Source of the DNA: a virus
Length of the DNA: 64,000 nt
Reading direction: 5' to 3' (one strand)
Virus record (IMG/VR): IMGVR_UViG_3300042469_000068
Coordinates: 1 to 64,000 of that record
Shown piece after piece: positions 9,433 to 29,009 of this stretch; position 1 is the stretch's first letter, and every line of letters starts with the position of its first letter. The translations under genes and the position numbers were made by a program. The notes under the pieces were generated by a model. It did no database searches. It was given only the letters and a program-made list of their open reading frames with translations, and was not told where the DNA came from.

Positions 9433-9443
9433 GATATTTGTAT

Positions 9444-9671: not shown

Positions 9672-9703
9672 CTCATTTCCTCTGTGTGTTTGTCAGTTTG
9701 TAT

Positions 9704-9732
9704 ACTATACCATAGGAATTAAACTAAGTCAA
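9704..9732 (-). promoter_or_regulatory. Sigma70-like promoter ahead of the 75-aa gene and tRNA
   Basis: TTGACT, 17-base spacer, TATAGT on the minus strand. The -35 box lies inside the end of the DUF1289 gene. It would drive the 75-aa gene, the tRNA-Gly and the genes below them. Confidence 0.65.
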
Positions 9733-9928
9733 GTGAAATCATCTGCCTCTGCTCGTTGGCTTTCTTGGTGGCTTTGGAACGTTTCCTTGCGGCTTTTGCG
9801 ATTTCAACTTTCCGTTCTTTGGTGGCATAGAACCACTCGGTGATCTCCTCAGCCGTGCGGCCGCACCCTCGGCATATTCTTTGATCGTCTTCATATTCAC
9901 ATACCTTTCTACAAATGGAATTATTCAT
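9719..9928 (-). CDS. DUF1289-family small cysteine protein
   Basis: 69 residues. The spacing of CRKVC, then CRGCGRTAEEI, and the WFYATKERKVEIAKAA helix match the DUF1289 family of small proteobacterial proteins, proposed to bind iron-sulfur or zinc. Biochemical role unestablished. The C-terminal half is very basic (RKRSKATKKANEQR), so nucleic-acid contact is possible. The family is common in alpha- and gammaproteobacteria, which is one of the host hints. Its start overlaps the epimerase stop by eight bases. Confidence 0.8.
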   Translation of the reverse strand: MNNSICRKVCEYEDDQRICRGCGRTAEEITEWFYATKERKVEIAKAARKRSKATKKANEQRQMISLDLV

Positions 9929-10907
9929 TGTTTTTCAAATTATCCAGACAGTACTTGATGCTCTCTTGAAGTTTCTTTGTTGACTTGAAATTTAGCATTT
10001 TTTCCGCCTTGCTTATATCTGGAATACGAACTTTAACGTCAGCATAATAATCCGCAACAGTTTCGAAAGAAAGATCACTCGGCGGAATAAGACCGCGCTC
10101 TACTGCTTCATCATGAATGGTATATGCTAACTGCTTCATGGTTAAAGGTTCAGGATTACCTATATTGAACGTTTCATTAAGTGATCTAACATTAAAAGAT
10201 TCCGTGCCAATCATTCGGGCTACATCATCAATCCAAGTGAAGCATCTTATCTGCGATCCATCACCGATGATTGGTAGAGGATTCTTTTTTTCAATTACAA
10301 TATGCTTGATGTAATCCGCAAACACATGCGAAGTGCCAATATCACCTTCAGACTTTTCATAAGGCGTAATGATATTGAATGGACGCCAGATTGTATAATC
10401 CAAATCATATTGCTTTTTGTATGCGATAGACATACGTTCACCAACATACTTGGACATTCCATATTCGGTATAAGGAGCAGGATACTTGTCTACCATATCT
10501 TCGTATACAGGAACATCGACACTTTGTGGACAGTTCTCATACACCATACTTGATGATATATAGACAACGCGCTTTACGTTCCAATTAACAGCAGATTGGA
10601 GAATATTACCATGTAGCATAGGATCATTGTATAGAATGTCCGCACAGTACTTGTTGAATCCACCAACGCCAAAGATTCGAGCAGCAGCTTGAATGATATA
10701 GTCGGGTCTTATTCTACCAATAAGAGTGTCAACATCGAATGGATTTGTAAGGTCGATCTTCTCAAAGTCATAACCCTTTGCTAAATTCATTCTTTCATTA
10801 TAACGAAATAGACTATCAGCACCAACAACTTCATGACCGTTAGCAATCAAATAGGGAATAACAGCCTGCATCAAACTGCCTTCGGATCCAGTAACTAAAA
10901 TTTTCAT
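9921..10907 (-). CDS. NAD-dependent nucleotide-sugar epimerase/dehydratase
   Basis: 328 residues, extended short-chain dehydrogenase fold. The Rossmann start is VTGSEGSLMQAVIPYL, with the glycine motif partly altered. VYISSSMVYE carries the catalytic Ser region and YGMSKYVGER the YxxxK pair. RPFNIITPYE and NIGNPEPLTM are typical of UDP-glucose 4-epimerase-like enzymes. It converts an NDP-sugar in the cytoplasm for the adjacent glycosyltransferases; the exact sugar cannot be told. It overlaps the dehydrogenase gene upstream by four bases and opens, in map order, the glycan island. Confidence 0.9.
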   Translation of the reverse strand: MKILVTGSEGSLMQAVIPYLIANGHEVVGADSLFRYNERMNLAKGYDFEKIDLTNPFDVDTLIGRIRPDYIIQAAARIFGVGGFNKYCADILYNDPMLHGNILQSAVNWNVKRVVYISSSMVYENCPQSVDVPVYEDMVDKYPAPYTEYGMSKYVGERMSIAYKKQYDLDYTIWRPFNIITPYEKSEGDIGTSHVFADYIKHIVIEKKNPLPIIGDGSQIRCFTWIDDVARMIGTESFNVRSLNETFNIGNPEPLTMKQLAYTIHDEAVERGLIPPSDLSFETVADYYADVKVRIPDISKAEKMLNFKSTKKLQESIKYCLDNLKNNE

Positions 10908-12124
10908 AATGTATAAACTCCGTCTGTTGTCTCTTTACTTTGATTTAAGAATTTCCAAGCATCAGCAATCACAGTGCCGCGATTCTTAGCGATATGTTTA
11001 TCAAAGAATTTCTGAAATACTGTGTGAGGTGTCATGACAATGAACGCATCAAATTCTTCTAATAGGTGATCTAATGGCCACCAATTATCTGGATGACGGA
11101 GATATGGATCAAAAAAAGCATATTCAATACCATTTCTTTTACAAATCTTTGCGAATTTAAAACTTAAACTATTTCTAGCATCATCACAATCAGCCTTGAA
11201 TGTCGCACCAAGAATACCAATCTTACTGATATTAGGATTTTCCTTCATCATCATCTTAAACATATATTGTGGCATACCTTCATTGATCAAAAATGAAGAC
11301 TGAATCAATTCTGGATAGTGTACATCTTCAAGTAAAAACTTGCCATCTTTGAATAAACATGGGCCGCCCACGTTTGGTCCAGGCTTAGGTAATGCCATGC
11401 GCGAGTATCCTTTATTCGCAGCATCGATTACCTTATGAACATCTAAGCCCTGATCTGTACCGATCATGTAAAATTCATTAGCAAGAGCAAATGTCACATA
11501 ACGATACATATTAGTAATGAGCTTACCAAACTCAGCTTCGCGTTGCGTTAGCCACATACATTCTGGCACGAAATTAAATAGCTCACACGCGCGATTATAT
11601 GCGTCTTCTGTACTAGCACCAATAAGTTGTGGGAACTTTTTACTTTCCAATATGCCAACGCCCTGCGCTACACGTTCTGGAGCAAATACGACATGTGTAG
11701 AAACAGATGATTCCTCTTTCAAGATTTTCTCAATAAGTTCTGTAGTACCAGGAGCAACTGTACTACGAAGAACCACAAGAGTATTATCACGAATGCTTGG
11801 AGCAAGAGAATATCTTACAAAGTCTAAGATATCATCAACTCGAGGATTACTTTCGCCATCAACCGGAGTGCCGATCATGATTGCGACAGCATCACATTCT
11901 TCTAATCGCTCGGTATCTGTTGTGTATGTCAAGCGATTGGTATTAAGTAAACTCATTAATAATTCTTTTGCTCCCTCTTCTTTATGAGGAACAAAACCGC
12001 CTAATAGTTGTACACATGCTGCTGGATTACAATCAATGCCTATAACATCATGTCCAGCATCCGCTAGAACAAGTGAGAAAGGAAATCCAACATGTCCTGC
12101 TGCACCAATAACAGCTACCTTCAT
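10904..12124 (-). CDS. UDP-glucose/GDP-mannose dehydrogenase family enzyme
   Basis: 406 residues, with all three domains of the family. The N-terminal NAD fold starts MKVAVIGAAGHVGFP (GxxGxxG). A central dimerisation region includes FGKLITNMYRYV. The catalytic cysteine lies in PGPNVGGPCLFKDGKF near residue 255. The C-terminal substrate-binding domain has GATFKADCDDARNS. The enzyme oxidises an NDP-hexose to the uronic acid using two NAD+. The C-terminal motif resembles UDP-ManNAc/UDP-GlcNAc dehydrogenases as much as UDP-glucose dehydrogenases, so the substrate is open. Confidence 0.92.
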   Translation of the reverse strand: MKVAVIGAAGHVGFPFSLVLADAGHDVIGIDCNPAACVQLLGGFVPHKEEGAKELLMSLLNTNRLTYTTDTERLEECDAVAIMIGTPVDGESNPRVDDILDFVRYSLAPSIRDNTLVVLRSTVAPGTTELIEKILKEESSVSTHVVFAPERVAQGVGILESKKFPQLIGASTEDAYNRACELFNFVPECMWLTQREAEFGKLITNMYRYVTFALANEFYMIGTDQGLDVHKVIDAANKGYSRMALPKPGPNVGGPCLFKDGKFLLEDVHYPELIQSSFLINEGMPQYMFKMMMKENPNISKIGILGATFKADCDDARNSLSFKFAKICKRNGIEYAFFDPYLRHPDNWWPLDHLLEEFDAFIVMTPHTVFQKFFDKHIAKNRGTVIADAWKFLNQSKETTDGVYTL

Positions 12125-12624
12125 TACAAATTATTCCTTAAAGTGAGTGGATAGTCTGTACAGATTCCATGAAATCTTTCAAAATCTACATCATAGTTTA
12201 TATCATATTTGATTGTTTTGCAAGCAGGAAATACAGCAATACAATTTTCTCTTACTGATGCGGAATTAACAGCATTTGGATGAACCCAGATAGTATTATC
12301 TTTTAGAAGAATACACTGATCAATATCATGAAAGAATGGAATTATATTTCTCTTACTAATCTTTACCATCTCTTCTAATGCCCACATATTTTTACAATGA
12401 ACATAAAAATTCTGATTCATGTAAACAGTAGACCAGTGTAAAAGAGTATCGATTGAAAATGATTTGACAGGATTATCATGTCCTAACCAAAACTTGCTGC
12501 CCATATACCAAATATCAAATTCAATATCGAAGCCCCTTTCGAGGGCTTCGATTAGATACGATTCGGTATTTTCTTTTTCTTTATCTGGGCCAGTAAGATT
12601 GCCTCTGTGCGATACAATTCTCAT
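12124..12624 (-). CDS. Glycerophosphodiester phosphodiesterase-like protein
   Basis: 166 residues, shorter than typical GDPD enzymes (about 240). The N-terminus shows the family signature: SHRGN at residues 4-8, ENTESYLIEAL, EFDIWYMGSKFWLGHDNP with the acidic metal ligands and the second histidine. The C-terminal half of the barrel is abbreviated. Likely hydrolyses a glycerol- or sugar-phosphodiester; within this cluster it could trim or build a phosphodiester-linked glycan (inference). Starts at an ATGA-type overlap with the methyltransferase gene. Confidence 0.8.
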   Translation of the reverse strand: MRIVSHRGNLTGPDKEKENTESYLIEALERGFDIEFDIWYMGSKFWLGHDNPVKSFSIDTLLHWSTVYMNQNFYVHCKNMWALEEMVKISKRNIIPFFHDIDQCILLKDNTIWVHPNAVNSASVRENCIAVFPACKTIKYDINYDVDFERFHGICTDYPLTLRNNL

Positions 12625-13304
12625 ACGTTAATCACGACTCCTAGATTTTCACCGTGTGGCTGAGGCAACATAATTTCAACTCTCTTACCTATTAGATTGT
12701 AAAGGTGTTCATGTACTTTGTCTGTGAAACTCCATGGATACACATCATGAAATGCGATTACATATTTTTCTCCAAGTAAAGGAACAAACGAACTAATGTC
12801 TTTAATCATTTGATGCTCAAAGTGGCCCGCGTCAATGAATACAAAATCAAGAGGTTCTTTAATCCACTTACGAATAGATTTTTCTGTATCATATGGACTC
12901 CATCCAATTTCTGGATACAAAATATCTCTCAATCCAAACTTATCGATAAGATAGTTAACAGACTTATATCCATCAGACTTTTCATACACAAGAGGGTCAA
13001 TATTTTCGTATGCGCCTGGATTATCTAATACCTCTTCGACATAGGCATCCATTGTAACACATCTGCCACCAGTATTTTTAAATCCTAGGCCGATAGCAAG
13101 ACTGCTGATACCAAATGCTGTGGCACATTCATATCCGCGTTGGAGATTATACTTCGTCACTAGATCAGTTAAGAAGTCAAATTCGCTTTGCTTAATTGAA
13201 TATGGATACTGGTGATTCTTCATCTTAAGATTTCCACCACTTACGGACTCATAAGAAACAGGGCCGTCATTTAATGCTAAAATTTGTTCAAAGTAATTGC
13301 TCAT
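12621..13304 (-). CDS. Class I SAM-dependent methyltransferase (Methyltransf_24-like)
   Basis: 227 residues. RGYECATAFGISSLAIGLGF near residues 56-75 is motif I in altered form (xCATAxGxSS). DFVFIDAGHFEHQMIKDI is the characteristic acidic/His motif of the Methyltransf_24/CmcI-like group, and YVIAFHDVYPW follows. Probably methylates a sugar hydroxyl or a small molecule in the glycan island. It overlaps both neighbours by four bases, so it is one of a coupled series. Confidence 0.82.
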   Translation of the reverse strand: MSNYFEQILALNDGPVSYESVSGGNLKMKNHQYPYSIKQSEFDFLTDLVTKYNLQRGYECATAFGISSLAIGLGFKNTGGRCVTMDAYVEEVLDNPGAYENIDPLVYEKSDGYKSVNYLIDKFGLRDILYPEIGWSPYDTEKSIRKWIKEPLDFVFIDAGHFEHQMIKDISSFVPLLGEKYVIAFHDVYPWSFTDKVHEHLYNLIGKRVEIMLPQPHGENLGVVINV

Positions 13305-14017
13305 GCTATTTCCTTATATTCACCTAGTGGAGTATGTTGTATTGTTTTATTGAGAGGTATTTCTTGCCAATTAAGATTAAGCATCTTAATCCATGCTTCT
13401 GAAAGAAGATGTGGACAAAGAGTATCTGTCTGCTTATATATGTGATTAATATAACATGATAGTTTTGAAAACAAGACCATATTCAACATGTTCCCTGCTT
13501 GAAACATATCTCCTGTGCCTTGACCCAAATGATTTCTATGTACTGCTGTATAGAATTTTTTAGGATCAAAACTCGGCAACGGTTGATGTAAGATCATATC
13601 CGGCCTTATGCGAATTACGAAATCGTATGTTTTTCCAGTTCGCGCAGAATACTCTTCAACTAAAGACATGCCTCGCTGTATCTTATAAAACATGCTTAGA
13701 ATATTCTTTCGGCGATGGGCAAAGTTAGGAAAGGTGTCCCCTAACTTTTCAAAATGCTCGTTGTAATCTTCCCAGTCTTCTGTGACCATACTCTTAGGAA
13801 GATATGTATCAAAAACCTCTTGATGATTTACATCAGGAGTATTTTCATGAAATCCTTTTACATTGGTCTTATCGCCAGGAATCCACCAACCCTCTTCATT
13901 CCATGTATGAATGAAAATATCGGGCTGATAAGGCTGTATAATCCTCTCTTGAAAGTTTGGAAACACTTGTTTCCAACATCTCATATGTCCAGTTAGAACT
14001 ACAGCGATGTTTGTCAT
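13301..14017 (-). CDS. Putative glycosyltransferase, GT-A-like phage family
   Basis: 238 residues. The N-terminus IAVVLTGHMRCWKQVFPNF and the DIFIHTW motif, followed by DFVIRIRPDM (DxD-like R-x-R-P-D) and GDMFQAGNM, match a family of uncharacterised GT-like proteins in large phages and bacteria. No membrane segment. By position it is one enzyme in an assembly line for a phage glycan; donor and acceptor unknown. Coupled by overlap to genes on both sides. Confidence 0.65.
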   Translation of the reverse strand: MTNIAVVLTGHMRCWKQVFPNFQERIIQPYQPDIFIHTWNEEGWWIPGDKTNVKGFHENTPDVNHQEVFDTYLPKSMVTEDWEDYNEHFEKLGDTFPNFAHRRKNILSMFYKIQRGMSLVEEYSARTGKTYDFVIRIRPDMILHQPLPSFDPKKFYTAVHRNHLGQGTGDMFQAGNMLNMVLFSKLSCYINHIYKQTDTLCPHLLSEAWIKMLNLNWQEIPLNKTIQHTPLGEYKEIA

Positions 14018-15396
14018 TCTTTATGATTTTCCAAGAAATACTTGAGGTCTTCAGGAGTGCCGATGCCCCACATACGCTCAATCTGCTTGATACGAATTTT
14101 CTTATTGTCTTTGATTGCGTAGTTGAATACTGGACACACATAGAACTCGTTGTTTGTTCTATCATTTGCCGCAATCATTTGGTCGGCATATTTTACGTAA
14201 TCGGATCCCTTCTTCCAGAAATATATACCAACAGTAGCATTTTCACTGATCACATTCTTCTCTGCCACTTCACTAACAAAACCATTATCATCCAGTTTTG
14301 CGTAGCTCCACTTTGGATGATTTGCCTTAAATGTTAGGATACCACCATCAATCGAATCCGCATTGAAAGCGTACATGACTTCGTTAGTATTCCATTCAAC
14401 AAATTGATCGGAGTTTGCCATAATAAGAGGATGATCATTGTCGATCAATTCTCTCGCAAGAAGAGTAGTACAAGCCGCACCTTCTGTCATGCCTTCAACT
14501 TGTACAATTTTACAACCGGGCTTGATGGCAGATAGAAGAGACTTAAGATTATACTTCTCGTAGTGATCCTTCTGTACGATAAAGATATAATTTGCTTCCA
14601 TGTTTAGGTTATCAACCACTGTCTGGATCATAGTCTTATCACGTACCTCGATAAGAGGCTTAGGGAAAGTATATCCAGCAGCCGCGAAGCGTGATCCTGC
14701 TCCTGCCATTGGAATAAGAACATTGAGTTTTTGATCACGCCATGGAATAGACTTCTTACTACCACTTTCTAACTTCATTACAATATCCTGTATTCTTTCT
14801 AATGTTAGATCATAACTGTTTTCTATAGGAAGCAAAACAGCACCACTATCTATTGCGCCCTGTCTACCAATATGACTATCTTCTGCGATAATCGTAGTTC
14901 GAGGAATCGCATTAAGAGCATTCATACAATTCCAATACATCTCAGGATAAGGCTTTGTACGTCGAACATCTTCATTGCTCATGATGTATTCAACGTATTC
15001 CATTATACCAAGAGACATGAGACTAATCTTAATTGTTTCTCGGATACTGTTTGATGCTACAGCTATTCGATAGTTTTTGCTTTTAAGCCATTCGCAAATT
15101 TCAATAAGTTTAGATGACTTTGAAATAGACTTCAATCGTTCAAAAGTGTGCTTCTGCTTATCTTGCCAAATCTGATCGAAATAGGAAGAAGGTAGACCCT
15201 TGTTAGCAGCAAGAATTTTCAACTTAGTTGTTGTTGATAATCCATCATAAGTTGAAAGATGTTCTTCACGGGTAATGATATATTTTGGATCAATCGCATT
15301 CAGAGCATCATTGAGAGTTTCATAATGAAGTTCTCGGCTTTCGATCAAAACACCATCAAGATCAAATATCATTAGTTTATTATATTCAGTGGCCAT
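14014..15396 (-). CDS. Fusion of HAD-type phosphatase and sugar nucleotidyltransferase
   Basis: 460 residues from the ATG at 15396, which has an ideal AAGGAGATATTTGATA site. Ten further in-frame codons upstream are probably untranslated. Residues 8-215 are a HAD hydrolase (FDLDGVLIES nucleophile motif, VASNSIRE, EDSHIGRQGA). Residues about 230-460 are a nucleotidyltransferase (LIPMAGAGSRFAAAGY, FPKPLIEV, MANSDQFVEW). This pairs dephosphorylation with NDP-sugar activation, as in heptose or similar pathways (inference). Fusions of this kind are rare but known in bacteria. The stop overlaps the next gene. Confidence 0.88.
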   Translation of the reverse strand: MATEYNKLMIFDLDGVLIESRELHYETLNDALNAIDPKYIITREEHLSTYDGLSTTTKLKILAANKGLPSSYFDQIWQDKQKHTFERLKSISKSSKLIEICEWLKSKNYRIAVASNSIRETIKISLMSLGIMEYVEYIMSNEDVRRTKPYPEMYWNCMNALNAIPRTTIIAEDSHIGRQGAIDSGAVLLPIENSYDLTLERIQDIVMKLESGSKKSIPWRDQKLNVLIPMAGAGSRFAAAGYTFPKPLIEVRDKTMIQTVVDNLNMEANYIFIVQKDHYEKYNLKSLLSAIKPGCKIVQVEGMTEGAACTTLLARELIDNDHPLIMANSDQFVEWNTNEVMYAFNADSIDGGILTFKANHPKWSYAKLDDNGFVSEVAEKNVISENATVGIYFWKKGSDYVKYADQMIAANDRTNNEFYVCPVFNYAIKDNKKIRIKQIERMWGIGTPEDLKYFLENHKE

Positions 15397-16165
15397 TATC
15401 AAATATCTCCTTAAGCCTTTTAACACATTCGTCGGTCATCTGTCCAACTTTCCACTTATTAGGCTTCTGTATAGAAACGTCTGAATAAGGATTAAATTGA
15501 AATTTGTAACCAGCATCAATAACACTTTCACTCCATGCCAAATCTTCTGCTTGACCCCAAACAAACGATTCATCTAGCACAACATCTGTGAGTACCTTCT
15601 TCTTTGCTAGAATGTATCCACCACTTATATATTGTAGATGCGTGAGACCTTGTTCGGAGTAAGGCAGACCGCAAACCCATCTCGCGCCATTCCAGTTATC
15701 GGGAGCAACAGAGTATAATTCATTATGTAGACTAGGATATTTTTCTAAAAGCTTATCCATATATTTTTGATTTACAAGCCAGTCACTATGACGATCACCC
15801 TCATATCGATGCACCCTATTCATAAGAATATTCCAATTAGGATTCTCATCATTATAACGTCTCATGCCTTCATGCCAATTGAGATGTAATATATAGTAAT
15901 CGTGTATGAGACAGACAATATCATACTTTGAATTATTGACGAGTATATTCTTCTTCTTTGTGATCCAACCCTTTTTCTGTGTTTCATCAAAATCAATAAT
16001 GTTTGAATTTTTAGGAAGATTCACATCGTTTCTAAATTTTCCAATAAGATTAACTTCGTAGACAGCATCAGATTGTTTTCCAATACTGTCTACGAGATTT
16101 TGTAATTGATTAACATCATACTCTGGAGAAAGGCAGATGCCAAATGAAACTTCTAAATTTCCCAT
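15386..16165 (-). CDS. Glycosyltransferase-like protein (GT2-like)
   Basis: 259 residues. VSFGICLSPEYDVNQLQNLVDSI and DIVCLIHDYYILHLNW (with a DYY in place of the usual DDD/DxD), YISGGYILAKKKVL and WGQAEDLAWS (an ED motif acting as general base region) fit a GT-A family 2 glycosyltransferase. It has a perfect sigma70-like promoter inside the upstream GT4 gene. It overlaps that gene by 13 bases and the HAD-nucleotidyltransferase start by about 11. Confidence 0.75.
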   Translation of the reverse strand: MGNLEVSFGICLSPEYDVNQLQNLVDSIGKQSDAVYEVNLIGKFRNDVNLPKNSNIIDFDETQKKGWITKKKNILVNNSKYDIVCLIHDYYILHLNWHEGMRRYNDENPNWNILMNRVHRYEGDRHSDWLVNQKYMDKLLEKYPSLHNELYSVAPDNWNGARWVCGLPYSEQGLTHLQYISGGYILAKKKVLTDVVLDESFVWGQAEDLAWSESVIDAGYKFQFNPYSDVSIQKPNKWKVGQMTDECVKRLKEIFDNGH

Positions 16166-17100
16166 AGAATATCTTCGATATCATTTACCGTTTGTTCGAT
16201 TGTGTGATTTGCCATGACGTAATTATAGCTATCTTCAATCTCTTTGTCAACTCTTTTAAATCTCATCAGCATCAACATAAGTTCTGATTCGTTATCATAG
16301 ATTTTACCATATGATGACATATCTTTAGCTCCAGCAATGTTACGAGCATACCAAGGTGTCTTATTCATCATTGCTTCCAAAAGAACAAGACCGAATCCTT
16401 CATCATAGCTATTCATAATATAAGCATCCGCACTTGCGATAGCTTGAGCAACTTCATCTTTTGGTTTGCCAAGAAATACCTTAACATTACTTGTATTCGG
16501 TGGCATTTCTCCAGGATGATATCCGTATAGATGGAGTTCTGTATTTGGTATGTTCGCATGTATGAATTCTTGAGCAAGAGGCACCATTGCCTTATTTGGC
16601 CAAAAACCACCAGCAGAAACGAAAGTTGTCTTAGGATATTTCAATTTTGGTTTTATGGTTTGCCCAACATTCATTCCATGACGAATGCGCCGAGCTTTAT
16701 TAAGATATCCAAATTTCTTGATATGATTGATATCGACAGAAGTTGAATATGCTATGAATCGATGATGCTTTAATCCATTGTAACAAATTTCGCTTTCGCT
16801 CGGTTTGATAATCATATAGACAACAGGTGTTTTTCTTAAAGCATAGGCATTCGCATGAACAATATTCTGAGAGATAACATCGCCGCCATGAACAACTATG
16901 AGATTCCATCGCTGATTAAGAATGTTATAATCGTTTGTAACTTTAACGCCGTTTAAGTCGCCCTGATGCTCATGAGCAAGTACGGTAACATCATAGCCAC
17001 GTCTCACACATTCTTCTGCCATATCTCTCACATAATACTCAGAGCCACCAGGAAATGGAGCATATCGATGTACCACAAACATAATACGAGCGTTACTCAT
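16153..17100 (-). CDS. Glycosyltransferase family 4 (GT-B fold)
   Basis: 315 residues. The N-terminal acceptor domain begins MFVVHRYAPFPGGSEYYVRDMAEE. The C-terminal donor domain shows FVSAGGFWPNKAMVPLAQEF, the YGYHPGE turn and SYDEGFGLVLLEAMMNKTP, the E-x7-E signature of GT4 retaining enzymes. Slightly shorter than typical (350-400). It transfers a sugar from an NDP donor in the cytoplasm. The start is at the stop of the GT10-like gene (TAATG). Confidence 0.9.
   Translation of the reverse strand: MSNARIMFVVHRYAPFPGGSEYYVRDMAEECVRRGYDVTVLAHEHQGDLNGVKVTNDYNILNQRWNLIVVHGGDVISQNIVHANAYALRKTPVVYMIIKPSESEICYNGLKHHRFIAYSTSVDINHIKKFGYLNKARRIRHGMNVGQTIKPKLKYPKTTFVSAGGFWPNKAMVPLAQEFIHANIPNTELHLYGYHPGEMPPNTSNVKVFLGKPKDEVAQAIASADAYIMNSYDEGFGLVLLEAMMNKTPWYARNIAGAKDMSSYGKIYDNESELMLMLMRFKRVDKEIEDSYNYVMANHTIEQTVNDIEDILWEI
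16222..16250 (-). promoter_or_regulatory. Consensus sigma70 promoter inside GT4 gene
   Basis: Perfect TTGACA, 17-base spacer, perfect TATAAT on the minus strand, about 60 bases before the start of the 259-aa glycosyltransferase gene. One of the best promoter matches in the window even though it lies wholly inside coding sequence. Confidence 0.7.
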
Positions 17101-17978: not shown

Positions 17979-17990
17979 ATTATACCTCAC

Positions 17991-19184: not shown

Positions 19185-19185
19185 A

Positions 19186-21690: not shown

Positions 21691-22424
21691 GGTAATGCTC
21701 CATTATAATGTTCAAGCTGTTGTTCGTTGCCCTTGATGAAGAAATCAGCATCAGGAGAATTTGGATTTGCGTCTGTTCTATAACAGAGAGTGTGTTTATA
21801 ACTTGTATCCCACTTAGGATTCTGAGCTAATACACTGTAAAGATATCTGCGATCACCGCCCCAACCAGAATGCCATAAATGACAAGTCTTCTGTAGGAAT
21901 TTTGTATTGAAGGCAAACGAAGATGTATCAACAAGATACTGCGGATCATTGTGAGAGAAATAGATTGGCCATTTGCCTAGTGCTTCACAGTTATCGTCTG
22001 CGATATATGTCTTATCGGGGGAGTATATTTTGCGGAATGAGTATGCGAAATCGTTACCACGATCAAGCACCTCTACAAGAGTTCTCACATGATCGGGTTC
22101 ATACCAATTATCTTCATCAAGAAAAAAGACATAATCAGCATTGAGAAAATGAGGAACACCAGCATAGATGCGATGCCCGTAGAATTTGCCACCAGTCCCT
22201 CCAGTGTTCCAAGGTAGAAACATAAATTGAAGATTCCAATGATCCTTATCTTGGTGCACAAGATTTTTATTAAAACGTTCTAGATGTTCAGTTCCATCTA
22301 GAACCAAAAGATGTGTGAGATTTTTATATGTCTGATTCGCAACGCTCTCAACAGCATCAGCAAGTTTTGCTGAACCTACTGTAGGGGTAACAACGACCAC
22401 AGACTTTTCAATAATGAGTTTCAT
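21675..22424 (-). CDS. Glycosyltransferase family 2
   Basis: 249 residues from ATG 22424, preceded by an AGG-containing ribosome site; the longer frame to 22466 crosses the promoter/terminator and is unlikely. VVVVTPTVGSAKLADAVESV and NQTYKNLTHLLVLDG are the GT2 start, and YVFFLDEDNWYEPDHV contains the DED metal-binding triad. It is the first gene of the downstream glycan operon, directly after the promoter at 22455-22483. Confidence 0.88.
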   Translation of the reverse strand: MKLIIEKSVVVVTPTVGSAKLADAVESVANQTYKNLTHLLVLDGTEHLERFNKNLVHQDKDHWNLQFMFLPWNTGGTGGKFYGHRIYAGVPHFLNADYVFFLDEDNWYEPDHVRTLVEVLDRGNDFAYSFRKIYSPDKTYIADDNCEALGKWPIYFSHNDPQYLVDTSSFAFNTKFLQKTCHLWHSGWGGDRRYLYSVLAQNPKWDTSYKHTLCYRTDANPNSPDADFFIKGNEQQLEHYNGALPWITN

Positions 22425-22442
22425 AATATACCTATAAAGAAA

Positions 22443-22473
22443 GGAGAAGATGATAGTATATATCATCCTCTCC
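22443..22473 (-). terminator. Rho-independent terminator of pstS, overlapping a promoter
   Basis: On the minus strand a 13-base left arm GGAGAGGATGATA pairs with TATCATCTTCTCC (one mismatch) across a five-base loop, and is followed by TTTCTTTAT. It sits 14 bases after the pstS stop. The next promoter's -10 box lies in the loop. Confidence 0.75.
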
Positions 22474-22483
22474 AGATTGTCAA
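22455..22483 (-). promoter_or_regulatory. Sigma70-like promoter of the GT2-led glycan operon
   Basis: TTGACA, 17-base spacer, TATACT on the minus strand. The spacer contains the left arm of the pstS terminator hairpin and the -10 box forms its loop, so readthrough is stopped while new transcripts begin. Confidence 0.7.
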
Positions 22484-22486
22484 GTA

Positions 22487-23458
22487 TTACTTAAGCGGGA
22501 TAAGACCCTTCTCAGCCAAATATCCTTCTTCGCCAATAGCTTCGTCGCTCTGATATTCATCCATAAACTTCTTCAAGTCTGGATTTGATTCAAAGTGTGA
22601 TCCCTTGAAATAAACATAGAGCTTACGAGCGATTGGATAATTACCAGCAGCGATAGCATCATATTCTGGTGCAACATCATTGATTGTTGCGCCCTGAATA
22701 GTGTTTAGGTTCTCTTCAAGGAATGAATAACCAAAGATACCGAGAGCAGCAGGATTCGATTGAAGCTTCTGAACGATTAGATTATCATTCTCACCCGCTT
22801 CGATGTATGCGCCATCTTCACGAACTGATTGACAGAATGCCTTTGTATCTTCTTCTGAAACGATCAAGTTGTTATTCTTAATGTCAGCCTTGCATTCCTT
22901 CTCAAATACCAACTCTACAAATGAGTCGCGCGTACCTGAAGTTGGCGGCGGGCCAAGAACTTCAATCTTGTCAGAAGGAAGATCAGAACGAACCTCATTC
23001 CAAGTCTTTACTGGATTTTCGACAAACTTACCATCAACAACCACATACTTCGCAAGAGCGCGATAGATATCGTTTGTTGATAGGTTGATGCCAGGATGAT
23101 CCTTAGACATTGCGACTACAATGGCATCAATACCGATTGCCATTTCGGTGATGTTTTCTACACCATTCTCAGCACAAATCTTCTTCTCTTCATCCTTCAT
23201 CTTACGAGAAGCATTCACAGCATCAGGAGTATCCGGACCGTTACCAGCACAGAACATCTTGATACCACCACCAGTGCCAGTTGCTTCAACGATTGGTGCT
23301 GAAACACCATTCTTCTTAGCGAACTGTTCTGCGACAGTGGTTGTGAAGGGATAAACTGTAGATGATCCTACAATACGGATAACATCACTGGTAGCATAAA
23401 CTGAACTGGTACCAAAAGCAAACAGAACAGCAGCAAGAGTAAGCATAGTCTTATTCAT
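22487..23458 (-). CDS. pstS: PstS-like phosphate-binding periplasmic protein
   Basis: 323 residues from ATG 23458, which is positioned correctly after GGAGAAATGT; a start four codons earlier would place the ribosome site inside the gene. Signal peptide at about 1-23 (lysine, hydrophobic core, ending in VYATS). VRIVGSSTVYPF-type opening, ATGTGGGIKMFCAGNG and PPTSGTRDSFVELV are the phosphate-binding loops of PstS; a GSSTV and SGTRDSF pair are both present. It captures phosphate for the host Pst transporter during infection. Phage pstS is known from cyanophages. Flanked by terminators on both sides. Confidence 0.93.
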   Translation of the reverse strand: MNKTMLTLAAVLFAFGTSSVYATSDVIRIVGSSTVYPFTTTVAEQFAKKNGVSAPIVEATGTGGGIKMFCAGNGPDTPDAVNASRKMKDEEKKICAENGVENITEMAIGIDAIVVAMSKDHPGINLSTNDIYRALAKYVVVDGKFVENPVKTWNEVRSDLPSDKIEVLGPPPTSGTRDSFVELVFEKECKADIKNNNLIVSEEDTKAFCQSVREDGAYIEAGENDNLIVQKLQSNPAALGIFGYSFLEENLNTIQGATINDVAPEYDAIAAGNYPIARKLYVYFKGSHFESNPDLKKFMDEYQSDEAIGEEGYLAEKGLIPLK

Positions 23459-23478
23459 ACATTTCTCCATAATAAAAA

Positions 23479-23502
23479 CTGAGGAGCGTTATTGCTCCTC
23501 AG
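23479..23502 (-). terminator. Rho-independent terminator after hsp20 operon
   Basis: Perfect nine-base inverted repeat CTGAGGAGC/GCTCCTCAG around a six-base AATAAC loop (minus strand), followed by five T residues. The T run reaches the pstS ribosome-binding region, so it ends the hsp20 transcript immediately before pstS. Confidence 0.8.
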
Positions 23503-23511
23503 TATGTAGTG

Positions 23512-23559
23512 TCATTGGCCAGATAGCCAATCAGCTTCTTCATTAGTATAAGGAGCCAT
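23512..23559 (-). CDS. Possible 15-aa micropeptide
   Basis: ATG at 23559 overlaps the stop of the DUF3563-like gene (TAATG), AGGAG lies at a usable distance, and the frame MAPYTNEEADWLSGQ ends in TGA at 23512. It is followed at once by a terminator. It may be a real leader or micropeptide, or simply chance; nothing similar is known to me. Confidence 0.25.
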   Translation of the reverse strand: MAPYTNEEADWLSGQ

Positions 23560-23708
23560 TACCAATGTCTCCTATCGTTATAGGACTTGCGGTCCCATTC
23601 ACGCTGAAGCCATTCTAAGTGAGCTTGATCGGTAGCTTGACAAAGATAATCATACATACGATCATGCTCACTCTTGCGAGTGAATAGTTTCTTCAGTGTT
23701 CTTATCAT
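23559..23708 (-). CDS. DUF3563-like small protein, 49 aa
   Basis: A short gene of 49 residues. The core SEHDRMYDYLCQATDQAHLE, then WLQREWDR, follows the pattern of DUF3563 proteins (xYLAQATDxxDLExRxRxLDR), which are small proteobacterial proteins of unknown function. The N-terminus is basic (MIRTLKKLFTRK). Its ATG overlaps the hsp20 stop by one base, so it is translated with hsp20. DUF3563 occurs mainly in alpha- and betaproteobacteria, a second host hint. Confidence 0.65.
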   Translation of the reverse strand: MIRTLKKLFTRKSEHDRMYDYLCQATDQAHLEWLQREWDRKSYNDRRHW

Positions 23709-24241
23709 TACTTCTCCGATCTATCTTGTAGATACTCTTTGGTGGCAGTATTGCCATCCTCGTTGAGAAGTTCTTTCTTGGATTCAGTCTTTTCGCCGAT
23801 GTTGATTTTCTTTGGCTTCTTATCTTCAGGAATGAAGCGTTCAAGCCAAATCTTTAGCATACCGTTAATCAAATCAGCATTCTTAATTTCAATTGTATCG
23901 GCCAGAGCGAACTGGCGAGTGAAAGCACGTTCTGCAATTCCCTTGAAGATATAATTGTCGTCGGTGTCATTTGTATGAATATTGCCCTTGACGGTAAGCT
24001 TACCATCTTCTAGCTCAAGTTCCAGATCCTGCTTGCCAAAACCAGCAACAGCGATTTCAATAACGTAGGTGTTTTCACCAGTCTGTCTGATATTGTAAGG
24101 CGGATAAGTAGGAATCTTAGGAAGGGTTTCTGACATTTCCGAAAGTCTCTTCAAGATTGGTTCAAATCCAATTGTGGTATTGAACTGCTTCGGAAGAGAA
24201 AAAGACATAGGATCGAAAAAGGGGATTTTATTGATAGTCAT
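23708..24241 (-). CDS. Small heat-shock protein Hsp20/IbpA family
   Basis: 177 residues. The alpha-crystallin domain runs from about 45 to 145 (YPPYNIRQTGENTYVIEIAV, then GFGKQDLELELEDGKLTVKG, AERAFTRQFALADTIEI, ADLINGMLKIWLER). C-terminal tail acidic with an unusual TESKKELLNED extension. It is an ATP-independent holdase; in T4-like phages Hsp20 proteins are thought to help virion folding or protect during infection. Its promoter region carries both a sigma70 promoter and a T4 late box, so it may be expressed both early and late. Confidence 0.92.
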   Translation of the reverse strand: MTINKIPFFDPMSFSLPKQFNTTIGFEPILKRLSEMSETLPKIPTYPPYNIRQTGENTYVIEIAVAGFGKQDLELELEDGKLTVKGNIHTNDTDDNYIFKGIAERAFTRQFALADTIEIKNADLINGMLKIWLERFIPEDKKPKKINIGEKTESKKELLNEDGNTATKEYLQDRSEK

Positions 24242-24302
24242 GTGTTAACTCCTGTTTAGCAAGTTAGTTGTTTAAGTCTTCCCATTCAGGCGAAGACATA
24301 CA

Positions 24303-24333
24303 TATTTATATCACATCCTATGTCTCAAGTCAA
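24303..24333 (-). promoter_or_regulatory. Dual promoter of hsp20: sigma70 plus T4 late box
   Basis: On the minus strand TTGACT (24328-24333) is 17 bases from TATAAA (24305-24310), and the same -10 region reads TATAAATA (24303-24310), the exact T4 late-promoter motif used by gp55. The overlap suggests one site read by host sigma early and by gp55 late. The leader between this site and the hsp20 ATG is about 60 bases. Confidence 0.7.
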
Positions 24334-24346
24334 GTGTTTAAAAAAA

Positions 24347-25819
24347 TTATTCTGCGTCAAAGAAGAACATATGCCACAGTCTAGCATCATCCATAGTTAT
24401 GCCAAAATATTCGCTGGCAGCATGGATGCATCCGCCGTCAAAGATGACCAATCTATTGAATATGTTTCCGAACTTATCAACTCTTTCAAATGGAGTTCCA
24501 TCAAGGTGGTTGCTACCATAGAAAACTTCATTGATGCGTGGACTAGAGTTATGATGAACTCTACTCTTTTTATGCATGAAAGTAGATGTTCCACACGATG
24601 GCGGAGCATCTGGTGTTAGAAAGATCATAGCAGCATATTTTTGGAAGTCACAGTGATATACTACTGGTTCTCCTGCGGTATTGAGTTGGAATCTACCATT
24701 CATACCATAGTCTTCCCACTTGGTAATTTTCATATTTAAAATAGATTCGAATGATCTCTTGACTTCAGGAAAAAGAAACTGCTTAACTGTTCTTTTTCCT
24801 ATAAACCCACGACCAAAACCACCTTCGACATATTCTTGCTGCTGCGCGAAAGCCCGAATAGCAAGAGGATCTGAATAGAAGTTGTCTACTATAAAGGCTC
24901 TCTTGTTCATGCCTTTGTTCACATTGAACATTAATTCTTGTTCAGTGGGCTTAGGCTTTTCAGGTTCTGGAAGAGGATGATGAGCCTTATTCTCATACAC
25001 TGGTCTATGAACTATGTTCTTAAGGGGATTCTCGTTCTCTTTTATATCAACAAAGTTATACAACTTGGCCTCTGGATTTGAATTGATCCAGAATTCATCT
25101 CTATATCTGTTAGATCCTATTATCGATCTAACATCTCCTAAATTATCTAGAAAACTGTTCCACCAATTTAGATTTGAAGGATCACCGAGAGTTCTCAGAT
25201 AGCTTGATTTTGCCCACCAAGTATTACCAGCAAAATGTGGTATAAGATATGTTTGGTAATTGAAACTGGCTACATCATATGTATCAAGAGCTTTATGTAA
25301 TGTTTTCCAATTTTCAATTGCTCCCCAATTTAAAAATTGTCTAGAAAGATATGTTGACTTTTGATATTGATTATCATATGCCCACTTAACATTGTTGTTA
25401 TCTCTTGCCTCATACAGTCCTCTCAAACTGAAAGTTATACCACGCGCATGAAAATACAAAATCTTCATGTCTTCTTTTTGAGCCATATTATAGATTTTAC
25501 TATGGGTATAGGATTCAGTATTTTTATTTCCGCCATGATTGCCTTGATTTTTTGTAAAATCAGGATAGTGGTTCAACATATCTTGATCTGAAACAAAAGG
25601 ATCTGGTACTTCCTCGATTACCGCTTTCTTAAAATAAGAATTAGCTAGAACACTAAACCACTTTGTTTTCCAATAACTGTTGCTGACACATGTGATATAC
25701 ATTTCATCTGTAGCATCAAATAGACCCGAATCTACAGCACAGGAAAACTGTTCATTAACAATTGATGACCAATGACCCAGATCGTCCAAATAGATATGAT
25801 AAAATAGTACTGTCTTCAT
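24347..25819 (-). CDS. Glycosyltransferase-like plus 2OG-Fe(II) oxygenase-like fusion
   Basis: 490 residues from the ATG at 25819. Residues 1 to about 280 are alpha/beta with a FHARGI and NWKTLHKALDTYDVASFNY pattern resembling uncharacterised GT-like proteins of capsule clusters. Residues about 300-490 (FIVDNFYSDPLAIRAFAQ, VVYHCDFQKYAAMIFL with an HxD, then IFDGGCIHAASEYFG with the distal His and a RLWHMFF arginine) match the DUF6445 group of 2-oxoglutarate/Fe-dependent oxygenase folds. It might hydroxylate a sugar or protein acceptor. Separated from the hsp20 promoter by a few bases. Confidence 0.7.
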   Translation of the reverse strand: MKTVLFYHIYLDDLGHWSSIVNEQFSCAVDSGLFDATDEMYITCVSNSYWKTKWFSVLANSYFKKAVIEEVPDPFVSDQDMLNHYPDFTKNQGNHGGNKNTESYTHSKIYNMAQKEDMKILYFHARGITFSLRGLYEARDNNNVKWAYDNQYQKSTYLSRQFLNWGAIENWKTLHKALDTYDVASFNYQTYLIPHFAGNTWWAKSSYLRTLGDPSNLNWWNSFLDNLGDVRSIIGSNRYRDEFWINSNPEAKLYNFVDIKENENPLKNIVHRPVYENKAHHPLPEPEKPKPTEQELMFNVNKGMNKRAFIVDNFYSDPLAIRAFAQQQEYVEGGFGRGFIGKRTVKQFLFPEVKRSFESILNMKITKWEDYGMNGRFQLNTAGEPVVYHCDFQKYAAMIFLTPDAPPSCGTSTFMHKKSRVHHNSSPRINEVFYGSNHLDGTPFERVDKFGNIFNRLVIFDGGCIHAASEYFGITMDDARLWHMFFFDAE

Positions 25820-25821
25820 AA

Positions 25822-27984
25822 TTAAATTTCCACATCTGTTCTGTAACAAAGTTTCTTAAAGATTGCCGTAGAGCCTACCGAATGAATAGGCACGAATCCT
25901 ATCTTTTCTAAGAACTTAGGTACATTTTCAACTTGACCCCAATCAACATCATCGACAATACAGTATCCATTCAGTTCAACATTCACAGCATACTTTTTCG
26001 CATCGCGTAGAGCTTGATCGGTATGCTGACCATCGATATGTAGCAAGTTAATATTCTTTAGTTCAGGAGCATTATCACTTGTTTCTTTGAGTGTTACAAC
26101 ATATTCGTCTAATTCAAATTCCTTAATTACCGTCTTAAACAATTGAAATTTTTCTTGTAGATTGATTTGACTCCAATATTCATAGTGCGGACCCTCATAT
26201 CCTTTGGTCGCTTCTTCATTTGTCCAAGGATCAATGGCATAGATTTGACCTTTGTAATTTCTCTTTAATTCCAAAGCAACAGGCAAAATACTCTTACCCG
26301 CATAAACTCCAATTTCAACGCAGATAGGATTGTCAACATCTCTACAAATTTCATCTACATAGTCGATTAAACATCCGGCCTTGTCGAGTGAAATCCATCC
26401 CCATTCGCCATACTTCGCATCATATTCTGGATATATTCTTTCAATCTTATGTTTCGTTTGATTTTTTGATGTCGGCTCATAAGTTGGAAATAAAAACTCT
26501 TTAACTGTAGGTAATTCAAAAATTATAGAAGGCAAATCTTCAATAGGATACTTTTTGAGGATTCTATTTTTTTCAGCACTGACTCCCATCGATCCTTCTT
26601 CGATAAGAACATTGTCGATGTAATCCATTTTCTTTACGGAAGCAACTTTACCGTTTACCGATGATGTGGTAAAAGTATCATCATAGTGAACAAAGGTCTT
26701 ATACTTGTGCTTGACAACATCTCTGCCGCCCATAGAACTAAAATGCCATCCCAAGTCCTGTATCATTTGATCGTTTTGTGTTACATAGTTTATAGGGAAA
26801 GGATTATTTACATTGGTTCTCATTTGTGCTGGAGTGGCTCTTCTCAAATGCTGTCTTGTTGTGATAACAGCGCCAGTCCATTCAGCGGGTGTATTCGAAT
26901 CTCTATTGTAAACACGATAGTCAGCTCTACCTTCAAGCAATACCATTGGAATTCTTATGATACAATTTTGATTTTGCTTAACAATAGAAGACATGAATTC
27001 TATTGCTTGTGGCTTAATAATCTCATCAGCATCACTAATGATAAAGACCGTATCGTCGTTATAACTGTCCAGTACAGAAACAAGAGAATCAATGCCCATA
27101 CGCTCTCTAACCTTTGCTTTTAGAGTATTGATGTTATCGATGTTGTAGGAAGCATTAACTCTATCGATATCTTCTATAACAAGATTTTCTGTTTCTGGAA
27201 TATCCACCTTAATAATTCTAATATTGAGATGATCACATCCTATTTCTCTTAGAACGTTTTCAAGTTGATATTCCATAGGCGCGCCACTATGACTCTTATT
27301 ACATTCGGAAATAACAAACTCATCAACATGGTCTTTTAGTATATTAAGTCTCAGTCGAAGAATTTCTTTCATCGTTGGTGCATAGAATGTGAAACAATCT
27401 ACAGTTTTGATTTGTTCTGGGCCAAGTTTAGATTCAATAGTGCTCATATAATTATCAACCTCTTCTCTATGAGAATTATCCATGTCATTCCAATATAATC
27501 TTTTCAATCTTTTGAATAGTCTTCTAGACCTTTCATTTTTACCATACCACCATGATGCGATTGCTTCGTGATAATATAATCCCCATCTACCAGGATAGTC
27601 TGATCCTATATCTGAATATGAGTTTTCTTTACAGTTGCGTTGTGCCATACTACACATTAGAAAAGAGTCAGCATAGTTCTGTTCGGAATTATAATTTCTT
27701 GCTAGAAGATAATATGCCTCTGGTCTATCAGGGCAAAGATCGATAGCATTTCGATACATAGACTTAACAGTATAGTTTCTGTTTTTCTGTTTTTCAAAAC
27801 ATCTACCAACTCTCAACAAACATTCATATGATAGAAGATTGTCTTTTGATCTTTCAGCCGCGCGTAGTAGATACGATACAGCAGCCGCAGTCTGTCCAAT
27901 CTTTTCATATTCGAGACCCATCTTGTAGTTAAGAATTGGGTTTTCGGTATCCATAATATATTCAATAAGCAAAGACTCAAGCAT
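25822..27984 (-). CDS. Three-domain protein: TPR, GT17-like glycosyltransferase, methyltransferase
   Basis: 720 residues. About 1-180 contain TPR-like helical pairs (YLLRAAERS, RSMYRNAIDLCPDRPEAYYLLARNY-type repeats). About 195-480 open DCFTFYAPTMKEILRLRLN, then DEFVISECNKSHSG and FIISDADEIIKP, the pattern of GT17 beta-1,4-GlcNAc transferases. About 540-715 form a SAM domain with CVEIGVYAGKSILPVA and HIDGQHTDQALRDAKKY. A single chain that binds partners, glycosylates and methylates is rare. AAGGA nine bases upstream supports this start, which overlaps the next gene's stop by eight bases. Confidence 0.85.
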   Translation of the reverse strand: MLESLLIEYIMDTENPILNYKMGLEYEKIGQTAAAVSYLLRAAERSKDNLLSYECLLRVGRCFEKQKNRNYTVKSMYRNAIDLCPDRPEAYYLLARNYNSEQNYADSFLMCSMAQRNCKENSYSDIGSDYPGRWGLYYHEAIASWWYGKNERSRRLFKRLKRLYWNDMDNSHREEVDNYMSTIESKLGPEQIKTVDCFTFYAPTMKEILRLRLNILKDHVDEFVISECNKSHSGAPMEYQLENVLREIGCDHLNIRIIKVDIPETENLVIEDIDRVNASYNIDNINTLKAKVRERMGIDSLVSVLDSYNDDTVFIISDADEIIKPQAIEFMSSIVKQNQNCIIRIPMVLLEGRADYRVYNRDSNTPAEWTGAVITTRQHLRRATPAQMRTNVNNPFPINYVTQNDQMIQDLGWHFSSMGGRDVVKHKYKTFVHYDDTFTTSSVNGKVASVKKMDYIDNVLIEEGSMGVSAEKNRILKKYPIEDLPSIIFELPTVKEFLFPTYEPTSKNQTKHKIERIYPEYDAKYGEWGWISLDKAGCLIDYVDEICRDVDNPICVEIGVYAGKSILPVALELKRNYKGQIYAIDPWTNEEATKGYEGPHYEYWSQINLQEKFQLFKTVIKEFELDEYVVTLKETSDNAPELKNINLLHIDGQHTDQALRDAKKYAVNVELNGYCIVDDVDWGQVENVPKFLEKIGFVPIHSVGSTAIFKKLCYRTDVEI

Positions 27985-28951
27985 AAATAAATTCCTTAAT
28001 CACATTCACATCCGTCTTTAATACATATGCGACATTATCTTGAAAGCCAAATGTTATGAAGATATCATTATCTCTTTTAGCAAGCCCGCAGGCAAATTCT
28101 ATCTTTGCTTCCATGAACGAGAACTCTTTCGATCTATGTATTGGTTCCCAGTCCTTACTCCAGTAGATGAATCGATGACGATATGTTCCATCTTTTCTTC
28201 CTTGGGCACTAACATATAGATTTGTTTCATGGATGAGTGCTAGATATCCGTCTTCAAATGGAATAACTTGACCGCCGCCGCGTTGATCTCTATCAAAGAA
28301 TATTTTGTTTCCTAAGAAACTTGTCACGCAACTCCTATCTTCAGGATCTGCTTTAACGATTTCTACTGGATTACACCACTTCAAATAATGATACGGCATA
28401 TCTGTTATAGGCATCCAGTTCTTTTCACAGTAAGAACCATCACCATTTGGTGCAGGAATACGGAATCGAGAAATCTCTTTGACACCACTCTCAGAAATTT
28501 CTATCTCTGAAAGTTCCATACGACCTTCACCATTAGTTTTCACATCTCTTCTAACACCAGAAATATATAGCTTATCATTCCATCTAACTATTCTAGCATC
28601 TTCTAATCCAACAAATTCCCATACAGGTTTAATATCAAATGCGCTTGTATCAACTTTGTGACAGTATTTAAAAGATAAGTCTTCGTTCAACTCACCGAGA
28701 TAGTTTGTTGTTGTAAGACTTACATCATTTTCAGGATTGAGATAGACTAGAGGACCCCAAGTATGTTCAAAACGATTTAGCTCGGAATGATATAGAGTAT
28801 ATTGGCAGTGTCGAACATTAACTAAAATCTTATCGCCATCAACATATACGCTTGGATTAAACAGACCTGTTCCATTTGTAAGTGAGGAATCTAACAGAAG
28901 CGGTTTGACAATACCGCCATTATTCAAAACATACTTCGCAAAGTGGATCAT
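27977..28951 (-). CDS. GH130-like five-bladed beta-propeller protein
   Basis: 324 residues. TGLFNPSVYVDGDKILVNVRH, VGLEDARIVRWNDKLYISGVRRD and NWMPI with later QVIPFEDGYLALIH match GH130 phosphorylases and related propeller enzymes, which act on beta-linked mannosides. The conserved Asp/Glu pair of the ED-R motif is visible; I cannot confirm the phosphate-binding residues. It could trim the phage glycan or a host polysaccharide. It starts the upstream end of the glycan island and has its own promoter at 28981. Confidence 0.7.
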   Translation of the reverse strand: MIHFAKYVLNNGGIVKPLLLDSSLTNGTGLFNPSVYVDGDKILVNVRHCQYTLYHSELNRFEHTWGPLVYLNPENDVSLTTTNYLGELNEDLSFKYCHKVDTSAFDIKPVWEFVGLEDARIVRWNDKLYISGVRRDVKTNGEGRMELSEIEISESGVKEISRFRIPAPNGDGSYCEKNWMPITDMPYHYLKWCNPVEIVKADPEDRSCVTSFLGNKIFFDRDQRGGGQVIPFEDGYLALIHETNLYVSAQGRKDGTYRHRFIYWSKDWEPIHRSKEFSFMEAKIEFACGLAKRDNDIFITFGFQDNVAYVLKTDVNVIKEFIYA

Positions 28952-28980
28952 AATATACCTTCATTATAAAAATTCACACT

Positions 28981-29009
28981 ATTATATAGCAAACACTTTA
29001 TAGATGCAA
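28981..29009 (-). promoter_or_regulatory. Sigma70-like promoter for GH130-like and downstream glycan genes
   Basis: TTGCAT, 17-base spacer, perfect TATAAT on the minus strand in the 82-base gap after the adhesin gene. The -35 box is weak. The ribosome site AAGG lies before the gene start about 30 bases on. Confidence 0.5.

Follow-up and report, generated by a model that had tools for sequence, protein, structure and literature searches.

The viral record IMGVR_UViG_3300042469_000068 in IMG/VR is an incomplete contig of 84,507 bases (84.5 kb), and bases 1-64000 of it, referred to here as the window, contain an island of glycan genes of about 19 kb at 9921-28951. The contig is a T4-like phage, infecting bacteria, as phage-family matches in the record include DNA polymerase, UvsX, a DnaB-like replicative helicase, the sliding clamp, the clamp loader, RegA, and the major head protein, which is 66% identical to that of Synechococcus phage S-WAM1 and 64% identical to that of Pelagibacter phage Mosig. 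Its relatives suggest that the phage is of marine origin. The island consists of 19 intact open reading frames (ORFs), all on the minus strand and mostly overlapping or abutting, of which 17 are candidates for glycan or methyltransferase functions. That it exceeds chance follows from the long overlapping ORFs, the strong family matches, and recurrence in independent contigs. A near-DNA search of the island against phages matched nothing except tRNA-Gly, and a tRNA-Gly(TCC) gene lies beside the right-hand island boundary (9359-9432, minus strand).

A preliminary description made from the sequence had proposed a phage-borne island of this size with around seventeen glycan genes. The island, its phage context, and its multi-enzyme sugar pathway all stand, as does the approximate number of genes, but the description missed the two remaining ORFs and with them the division of the island. 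These encode the phosphate-binding protein PstS (22487-23470, minus strand; Pfam E 2.8e-43, with NCBIfam TIGR02136 below its cut-off) and the small heat shock protein HSP20 (23708-24241, minus strand; Pfam E 1.7e-17), neither of which is a glycan gene. Because this pair (22487-24241) lies in between, the island resolves into two units: unit A, a cassette of nucleoside diphosphate (NDP)-sugar enzymes and glycosyltransferases that extends from 22466 to 9921, and unit B, from 28951 to 24347. Families above the Pfam cut-off include a short-chain dehydrogenase/reductase (SDR) epimerase, NDP-sugar dehydrogenase, HAD plus NTP_transferase, GT4, GT10, sugar C-methyltransferase, RmlB-like SDR, GT2, GT17, and Methyltransf_24.

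The sugar and transferase genes of unit A

All genes of unit A lie on the minus strand, beginning with a GT2 glycosyltransferase (21675-22466; Pfam E 2.1e-12) whose true start is likely the ATG at 22430, downstream of the promoter described below. It is followed by a putative S-adenosylmethionine (SAM) methyltransferase (21109-21690), assigned by reading its sequence and with no Pfam or PHROG match, and by a Nucleotid_trans-like putative glycosyltransferase (20204-21127) that falls below the Pfam cut-off and matches PHROG 1579, a glycosyltransferase family (E 2.1e-4). Next are an RmlB-like dTDP-glucose 4,6-dehydratase (19186-20268), recognized by Pfam, by its motifs, and by a PDB match at E 4e-50; an NDP-sugar 3-C-methyltransferase of the TcaB9 kind (17991-19184), with a YHEHL motif and a match to D-mycarose 3-C-methyltransferase at E 3.4e-56; and, by Pfam, a GT10 fucosyltransferase-like protein (17100-17990) and a GT4 glycosyltransferase (16153-17100). 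A possible glycosyltransferase of 259 amino acids (15386-16165) lacks any family match in Pfam, PHROG, or NCBIfam. Upstream of it is a 12/12 promoter-like site (16250-16222), and just after that site, at the start of the gene, is a 17-pair hairpin (16095-16056).

The remainder of the cassette comprises a fusion of a HAD phosphatase with a sugar-phosphate nucleotidyltransferase (HAD-NTP; 14014-15426), supported by profile matches and phage homologues; a possible glycosyltransferase with a weak DUF7796 match (13301-14017); a SAM methyltransferase of the Methyltransf_24 family (12621-13304; Pfam); a small protein resembling glycerophosphoryl diester phosphodiesterase (GDPD-like; 12124-12624; PHROG 34507); a nucleotide-sugar dehydrogenase like those acting on UDP-N-acetylmannosamine (UDP-ManNAc; 10904-12124; Pfam and NCBIfam); and an SDR sugar epimerase/dehydratase (9921-10907; Pfam and NCBIfam).

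The epimerase, RmlB, HAD-nucleotidyltransferase, and sugar C-methyltransferase of the preliminary description were recovered as Pfam matches above cut-off, and other assignments needed adjustment. Its UDP-sugar dehydrogenase is a Pfam NDP-sugar dehydrogenase to which UDP-ManNAc-type enzymes are closest, and a reading as UDP-glucose dehydrogenase was dropped. Its count of at least seven glycosyltransferases is plausible, but only four in the whole island pass the Pfam cut-off (GT2, GT4, GT10, and GT17), the rest being weak or without a match. Its GDPD-like protein has no Pfam match but shows 29-31% alignment identity to proteins of the phages S-CAM9, B23, and DSL-LC03, the last of which is annotated as a glycerophosphoryl diester phosphodiesterase.

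In alignments, the dehydratase and the C-methyltransferase carry the motifs expected for activity; the roles of the catalytic motifs in unit A are taken from general enzymology. The RmlB-like enzyme and the 3-C-methyltransferase together suggest a 3-C-methyl-6-deoxyhexose as a product, and the dehydrogenase and epimerase suggest a sugar of the uronic-acid type.

Cassette exchange and a conserved promoter

Relatives of the phage were those related to it by DNA polymerase, and most of them are, like the record itself, fragments. Among these relatives, cassettes differ in a slot between the PstS, GT2, and Nucleotid_trans genes on one side and the small genes before the polymerase on the other. 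The one relative that reaches both flanks of the slot, L038, is 94.0% identical to the window over 20202-21087 and 94.6% identical over 4785-9922; between these flanks it has just two matches to the window, both below 70% identity (236 and 992 bases). The cassette of L038 has genes for a DegT aminotransferase, a GNAT acetyltransferase, and an RmlB homologue. Two further relatives that reach the right flank only, L018 and L019, regain about 94% identity to the window at 9928, and the right-hand boundary, where this identity resumes in all three, falls at 9922-9928. The content of the slot varies widely: L019 has an RmlB homologue split over two ORFs, a C-methyltransferase, and, by sequence reading, GNAT- and DegT-like genes; L030 has a DegT enzyme (Pfam) after Gmd/GMER-like SDRs (sequence reading); and L026 has a GT2, a Nucleotid_trans gene, and an FkbM methyltransferase, and nothing else. 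Unit A is an exchangeable cassette at a defined slot, and the near-identical flanks in a sister phage represent a natural cassette swap. Against a single fixed slot, L007 shares the right-hand end of the cassette up to 12623 at about 80% identity, and a 198-amino-acid gene to the right of the boundary differs in L018 and L019 (37%); thus, slot boundaries vary among relatives.

Directly before unit A is a sigma70-like promoter, TTGACA-17-TATACT, with an overlapping dyad (22443-22483, minus strand). The pattern TTGACA-17-TATA(A/C)T and the dyad are kept in all seven distinct junctions (12 rows with duplicates) at which PstS and GT2 were found adjacent, and an 11/12 site precedes GT2 in L011/L012. 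Sites matching at least 11 of 12 positions number 14 in the window, of which 13 are on the coding strand and some stand before DNA polymerase and cobS, whereas five mononucleotide shuffles gave 2-10 (a count on one strand, doubled). A general 9-of-12 promoter scan performed at chance (80 found vs. 74.7 expected), and the stricter set and conservation were used instead. Upstream of unit B is a promoter-like core, TGCTATATAATAGTG (28977-28991, minus strand), and in relatives the core lies upstream of the GT2 gene of unit A. In 3.27 Mb of partly redundant sequence, the core TGCTATATA(A/C)TAGTG or the window variant occurs solely before GT2 (seven distinct contexts) and before the GH130-like gene of unit B (one). 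Taken together, the promoter sequences suggest early, shared control of units A and B. Several points weigh against an early start: it is read from sequence alone, L013 has no comparable site (best 7/12, with 110 upstream bases available), and the best sites in the 200 bases upstream of the S-CAM9, B23, and DSL-LC02 cassettes (8, 9, and 8 of 12) are at background. A late-promoter-like site, TATAAATA, lies before HSP20 (24303-24310, minus strand); this motif was set aside as a signal, with five found in the window vs. 4.7 expected.

Membrane partners and candidate acceptors

A hydropathy scan covered 15 loci and the 135 plus-strand ORFs of their cassettes that are 120 or more amino acids long. 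None had two or more hydrophobic windows and 10 had one; two ORFs of the island studied here have one each. None of 43 plus-strand ORFs of at least 100 amino acids in the isolates S-CAM9, B23, DSL-LC03, and DSL-LC02 had two such windows (five had one), and the same scan detected 13 in one bacterial ORF. The families of the initiating transferase (PF02397), Wzx (PF01943), and Wzy/ligase (PF04932) were found in none of 20 related records, most of which are fragments, compared with 9, 13, and 9 of 14 control genomes, respectively. The absence of polytopic ORFs and of these three families indicates that this is neither a stand-alone O-antigen system nor a capsule locus of the Wzx/Wzy kind, and on this evidence the island does not seem by itself to build and export a polymer; to call it a complete pathway, as had been done, was too strong. 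On the other side, missing export genes may lie elsewhere, given that the record and most relatives are fragmentary. A serotype-converting gtr cluster combines a polytopic membrane flippase with a glucosyltransferase; the island has no polytopic ORF, and the GtrA and GtrC families themselves were not searched for.

Lacking membrane partners, the enzymes would need acceptors that can be reached from the cytosol, namely lipid-linked glycans of the host, proteins of the virion, or DNA. Of the three, DNA is the least likely, and we consider it very unlikely that the sugars go onto phage DNA as a hypermodification. Some phages use NDP-sugar genes to modify their DNA, and a protein of the beta-glucosyl-HMC-alpha-glucosyltransferase family is encoded in the window, outside the island, at 52657-53631 (PHROG 842, E 1e-42). 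However, none of 12 records searched, mostly fragments, contained a member of the thymidylate-synthase family PF00303 (dCMP hydroxymethylase type), and the many varied transferases would appear to exceed the needs of base modification. Further, the available portion of a study of cyanomyoviruses states that nothing points to hydroxymethylcytosine or glycosylated DNA in these phages (PMC2984593).

Our preferred explanation, which we hold tentatively, is that enzymes acting early and in the cytosol attach a sugar chosen by the phage to lipid-linked glycans of the host, for example the lipopolysaccharide (LPS) core, and so alter the surface of the infected cell. Host-type RNA polymerase would probably start unit A early from its own promoter, and the enzymes, cytosolic or peripheral, would make an unusual sugar and place it on a host acceptor within reach of the cytosol, most likely lipid-linked outer core/lipooligosaccharide or another inner-leaflet glycan. 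The host itself would then export the modified glycan, rival phages would bind the altered surface less well, and the contest between phages would drive cassette exchange. We infer the timing, acceptor, sugar structure, and benefit of unit A, and two considerations count against this explanation: the point that no phage flippase is needed to modify the LPS core comes from general biochemistry, and decoration of the virion would likewise need cytosolic enzymes alone. Both options of the preliminary description, the host surface and the virion, hold as readings. The cassette swap, the candidate early promoter, and the cytosolic enzymes together give rise to testable predictions on timing and acceptor.

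Cytoplasmic glycosylation of tail fibres or capsid, with unit A supplying sugars and unit B acting on the neighbouring fibre, strikes us as rather unlikely. The first gene of unit B encodes a GH130/GT108-like propeller protein (27977-28951, minus strand). The earlier assignment as GH130-like falls short at the level of sequence profiles, as the Pfam GH130 match is below cut-off (E 0.0041, 16.5 of 26 bits) and there is no profile match to PDB sequences at E 0.01, but it is recovered in the predicted structure (AF2; pLDDT, the per-residue confidence, 88.6; pTM, the predicted template modelling score, 0.90), for which the best Foldseek matches are mannoside synthases/phosphorylases (best E 4.3e-10). 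All 57 aligned rows carry an E-D-R motif, and the protein is predicted to have a GH130/GT108 fold with a conserved acidic motif, where we take GT108 to be the appropriate name and the Asp presumably to be catalytic. The predicted fold and motif resemble those of GH130 mannoside phosphorylases and Leishmania GDP-Man mannosyltransferases, with 10-16% identity over the matches of GH130 type.

The second gene of unit B encodes a fusion of TPR, GT17-like, and Methyltransf_24 domains (25822-27984, minus strand; Pfam), the partners of which vary in relatives. TPR proteins beside GH130 in L184 (assigned by tblastn), L196, L205, and L295 are fused to FkbM/type-24 methyltransferases, GT17, GT2, or DUF6445. 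This pattern suggests exchangeable catalytic domains on one TPR scaffold beside GH130. In the third gene (24347-25849, minus strand), an N-terminal domain without a family precedes a C-terminal DUF6445 domain of the 2-oxoglutarate (2OG)-Fe(II) oxygenase type, which adds to the gene list of the preliminary description. AlphaFold modelled the C-terminus mostly at pLDDT above 90 and the N-terminal half poorly, with two long stretches below 50, and a glycosyltransferase identity for that half is therefore unproven. The C-terminus matches OGFOD1 and others (E 4.6e-5), the HxD and distal His are present in every one of the 46 rows that extend that far, and the distal Arg is present in 50 of 53 rows, a count that includes rows without the oxygenase domain. 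A 2OG-Fe(II) oxygenase fold and motif are predicted for this C-terminus. An S-CAM9 product (L176, 7970-8650) is named "minor coat protein," which is the name of PHROG 1644; PHROG 1644 matches DUF6445, and the name looks doubtful.

Close to unit B is a gene for a tail fibre of 1898 amino acids with 432 Gly-X-Y triplets (30494-36190, minus strand), and this proximity favours decoration of the virion, a process for which membrane partners are unnecessary. Across many IMG/VR contigs, homologues of the GH130, TPR, and DUF6445 proteins recur with their order kept. Among 85 distinct GH130 clusters, 48 have at least 3.5 kb upstream. In 25 of these 48, one of the four nearest upstream ORFs is collagen-like or Gly-rich, compared with 2 of 40 on the downstream side and 2 of 232 control windows of four ORFs. 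In DSL-LC02, unit B is inverted and sits between annotated collagen-like and tail fibre genes, and the TPR-DUF6445 fusions in L196 and L205 also speak for this explanation. However, the scans kept the best 80 matches each and the loci are related to one another, and in S-SCSM2R the nearest neighbour of unit B is annotated as a baseplate wedge/tail pin rather than a fibre. The composition of the fibre also argues against it: X is Pro in 3 of 432 triplets, Y is Lys in 1 of 432, and Y is Gln in 349, which is unusual for a collagen-like stalk. Because Pro and Lys are almost missing from the triplets, hydroxylation and glycosylation of the animal collagen type does not fit, and prolyl/lysyl hydroxylation of this type was rejected.

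Promoter motifs point in both directions. Of 91 regions, 24 have a late-type NATAAATA motif in the 160 bases upstream of GH130, compared with 70 of 2000 random windows drawn from phage loci alone, which favours decoration of the virion. But sigma70-like sites of at least 10/12 are enriched as well (29 of 91 regions vs. 107 of the 2000 random windows and 72 of 910 shuffles of the regions themselves), and no late motif was found in the window's own region upstream of GH130. The upstream regions are AT-richer (33% vs. 38% GC), so part of the motif excess is composition, and with both types enriched the timing of unit B appears mixed. Unit B may modify fibres; among the papers listed in literature searches, none concerned a fibre-modifying module, as judged on titles and the beginnings of abstracts. 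We regard as doubtful the broader proposal of two separable, co-regulated systems, in which an early sugar cassette is exchanged as a whole behind a conserved promoter, much as in a serotype slot, and a widespread GH130/GT108-TPR-2OG module modifies fibres; if true, one regulated programme would change both fibre chemistry and host-surface chemistry. The GH130-TPR-2OG unit provides a separate target for biochemistry.

Host, origin, and published counterparts

Among five phage records matched, PstS is closest to that of a Pelagibacter phage (44%), and at least 80 listed genome loci match it at 49-58% identity, mostly alpha- or gammaproteobacterial by title. No gene of the photosystem reaction centre family Photo_RC was found in any of 15 uncultured records, of which many are fragments, though 3 of 5 isolates have one. 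A cyanobacterial host is not supported, as Photo_RC is absent from the uncultured records and PstS matches elsewhere, and the host is probably a heterotroph.

The island could also be ballast, or a host polysaccharide locus recently acquired by transduction, and this we find extremely doubtful. "Stuffer DNA" has been raised for cyanophage LPS clusters in the accessible text of one report (PMC3037559), and the RmlB homologue in two ORFs in L019 is perhaps broken. Bacterial counterparts exist: among 385 sampled genomes of one class, the best match to HAD-NTP (57%) is next to a GDPD-like gene (30%), in a 1.4-Mb genome taken from the class of a Rhodospirillaceae centre. But phage homologues of HAD-NTP are closer (61-65% identity to proteins in nine Synechococcus phage records), the best bacterial locus otherwise offers a weak 26% DUF7796 match and nothing more, and the dehydrogenase has two listed matches among the 385 genomes, at 33% and 36% (E limit 1e-60). 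Moreover, the ORFs and motifs of the window are intact and its junction promoter is conserved. In the genomes sampled, recent capture of a host locus, for which the preliminary description had proposed a check of synteny, is not supported: the slot is in use in related phages too, and the bacterial locus that comes closest has in common two adjacent genes and the weak DUF7796 match.

The island belongs to a published kind, that of the cyanophage LPS clusters and the pelagimyophage host recognition cluster, with which it shares a T4-type core, contiguous NDP-sugar enzymes and glycosyltransferases, and hypervariability between close relatives. It is far beyond what is usual in T4, as had been claimed, but not in marine T4-like phages. 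In the portions of the reports available, LPS gene clusters in the cyanomyoviruses P-SSM2, S-SSM7, and S-SM2 are likewise large blocks of sugar genes near tRNAs, of unproven function and with a surface change suggested (PMC3037559, PMC2984593); a tRNA beside the clusters is reported there (PMC3037559), as tRNA-Gly lies at the boundary here. These three phages differ in having been isolated on picocyanobacteria. The pelagimyophage cluster is a hypervariable island with tail fibres, glycosyltransferases, and a sugar dehydrogenase, for which surface change against co-infection was already inferred (PMC7029224). The published emphasis is on GT8, of which there is no Pfam match among the island ORFs, and the part of that account available describes no exchange at defined boundaries, conserved promoter, or GH130-TPR-2OG unit (PMC7029224). 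By the same partial sources, reports of glycan islands in phages go back to at least 2010, with no target demonstrated (PMC3037559, PMC2984593); the present analysis adds a cassette exchange in which both flanks are seen, conservation of the promoter, a lack of membrane partners, and the GH130-TPR-2OG unit as a separate entity.

The isolates S-CAM9, B23, DSL-LC03, and DSL-LC02 also have glycosyltransferase or SDR genes, and three of the four have HAD-NTP (61-65%) and a GDPD-like gene, but their cassettes are smaller, adjoin high-light-inducible genes in all four, and have weak or no matches to the other sugar genes. Homologues of the GDPD-like protein sit near HAD-NTP in cyanophages and in one bacterial chromosome, which suggests a conserved two-gene unit. 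In L345 (8501-10413), a bacterial chromosome of 53% GC, the HAD-nucleotidyltransferase and GDPD-like genes are adjacent.

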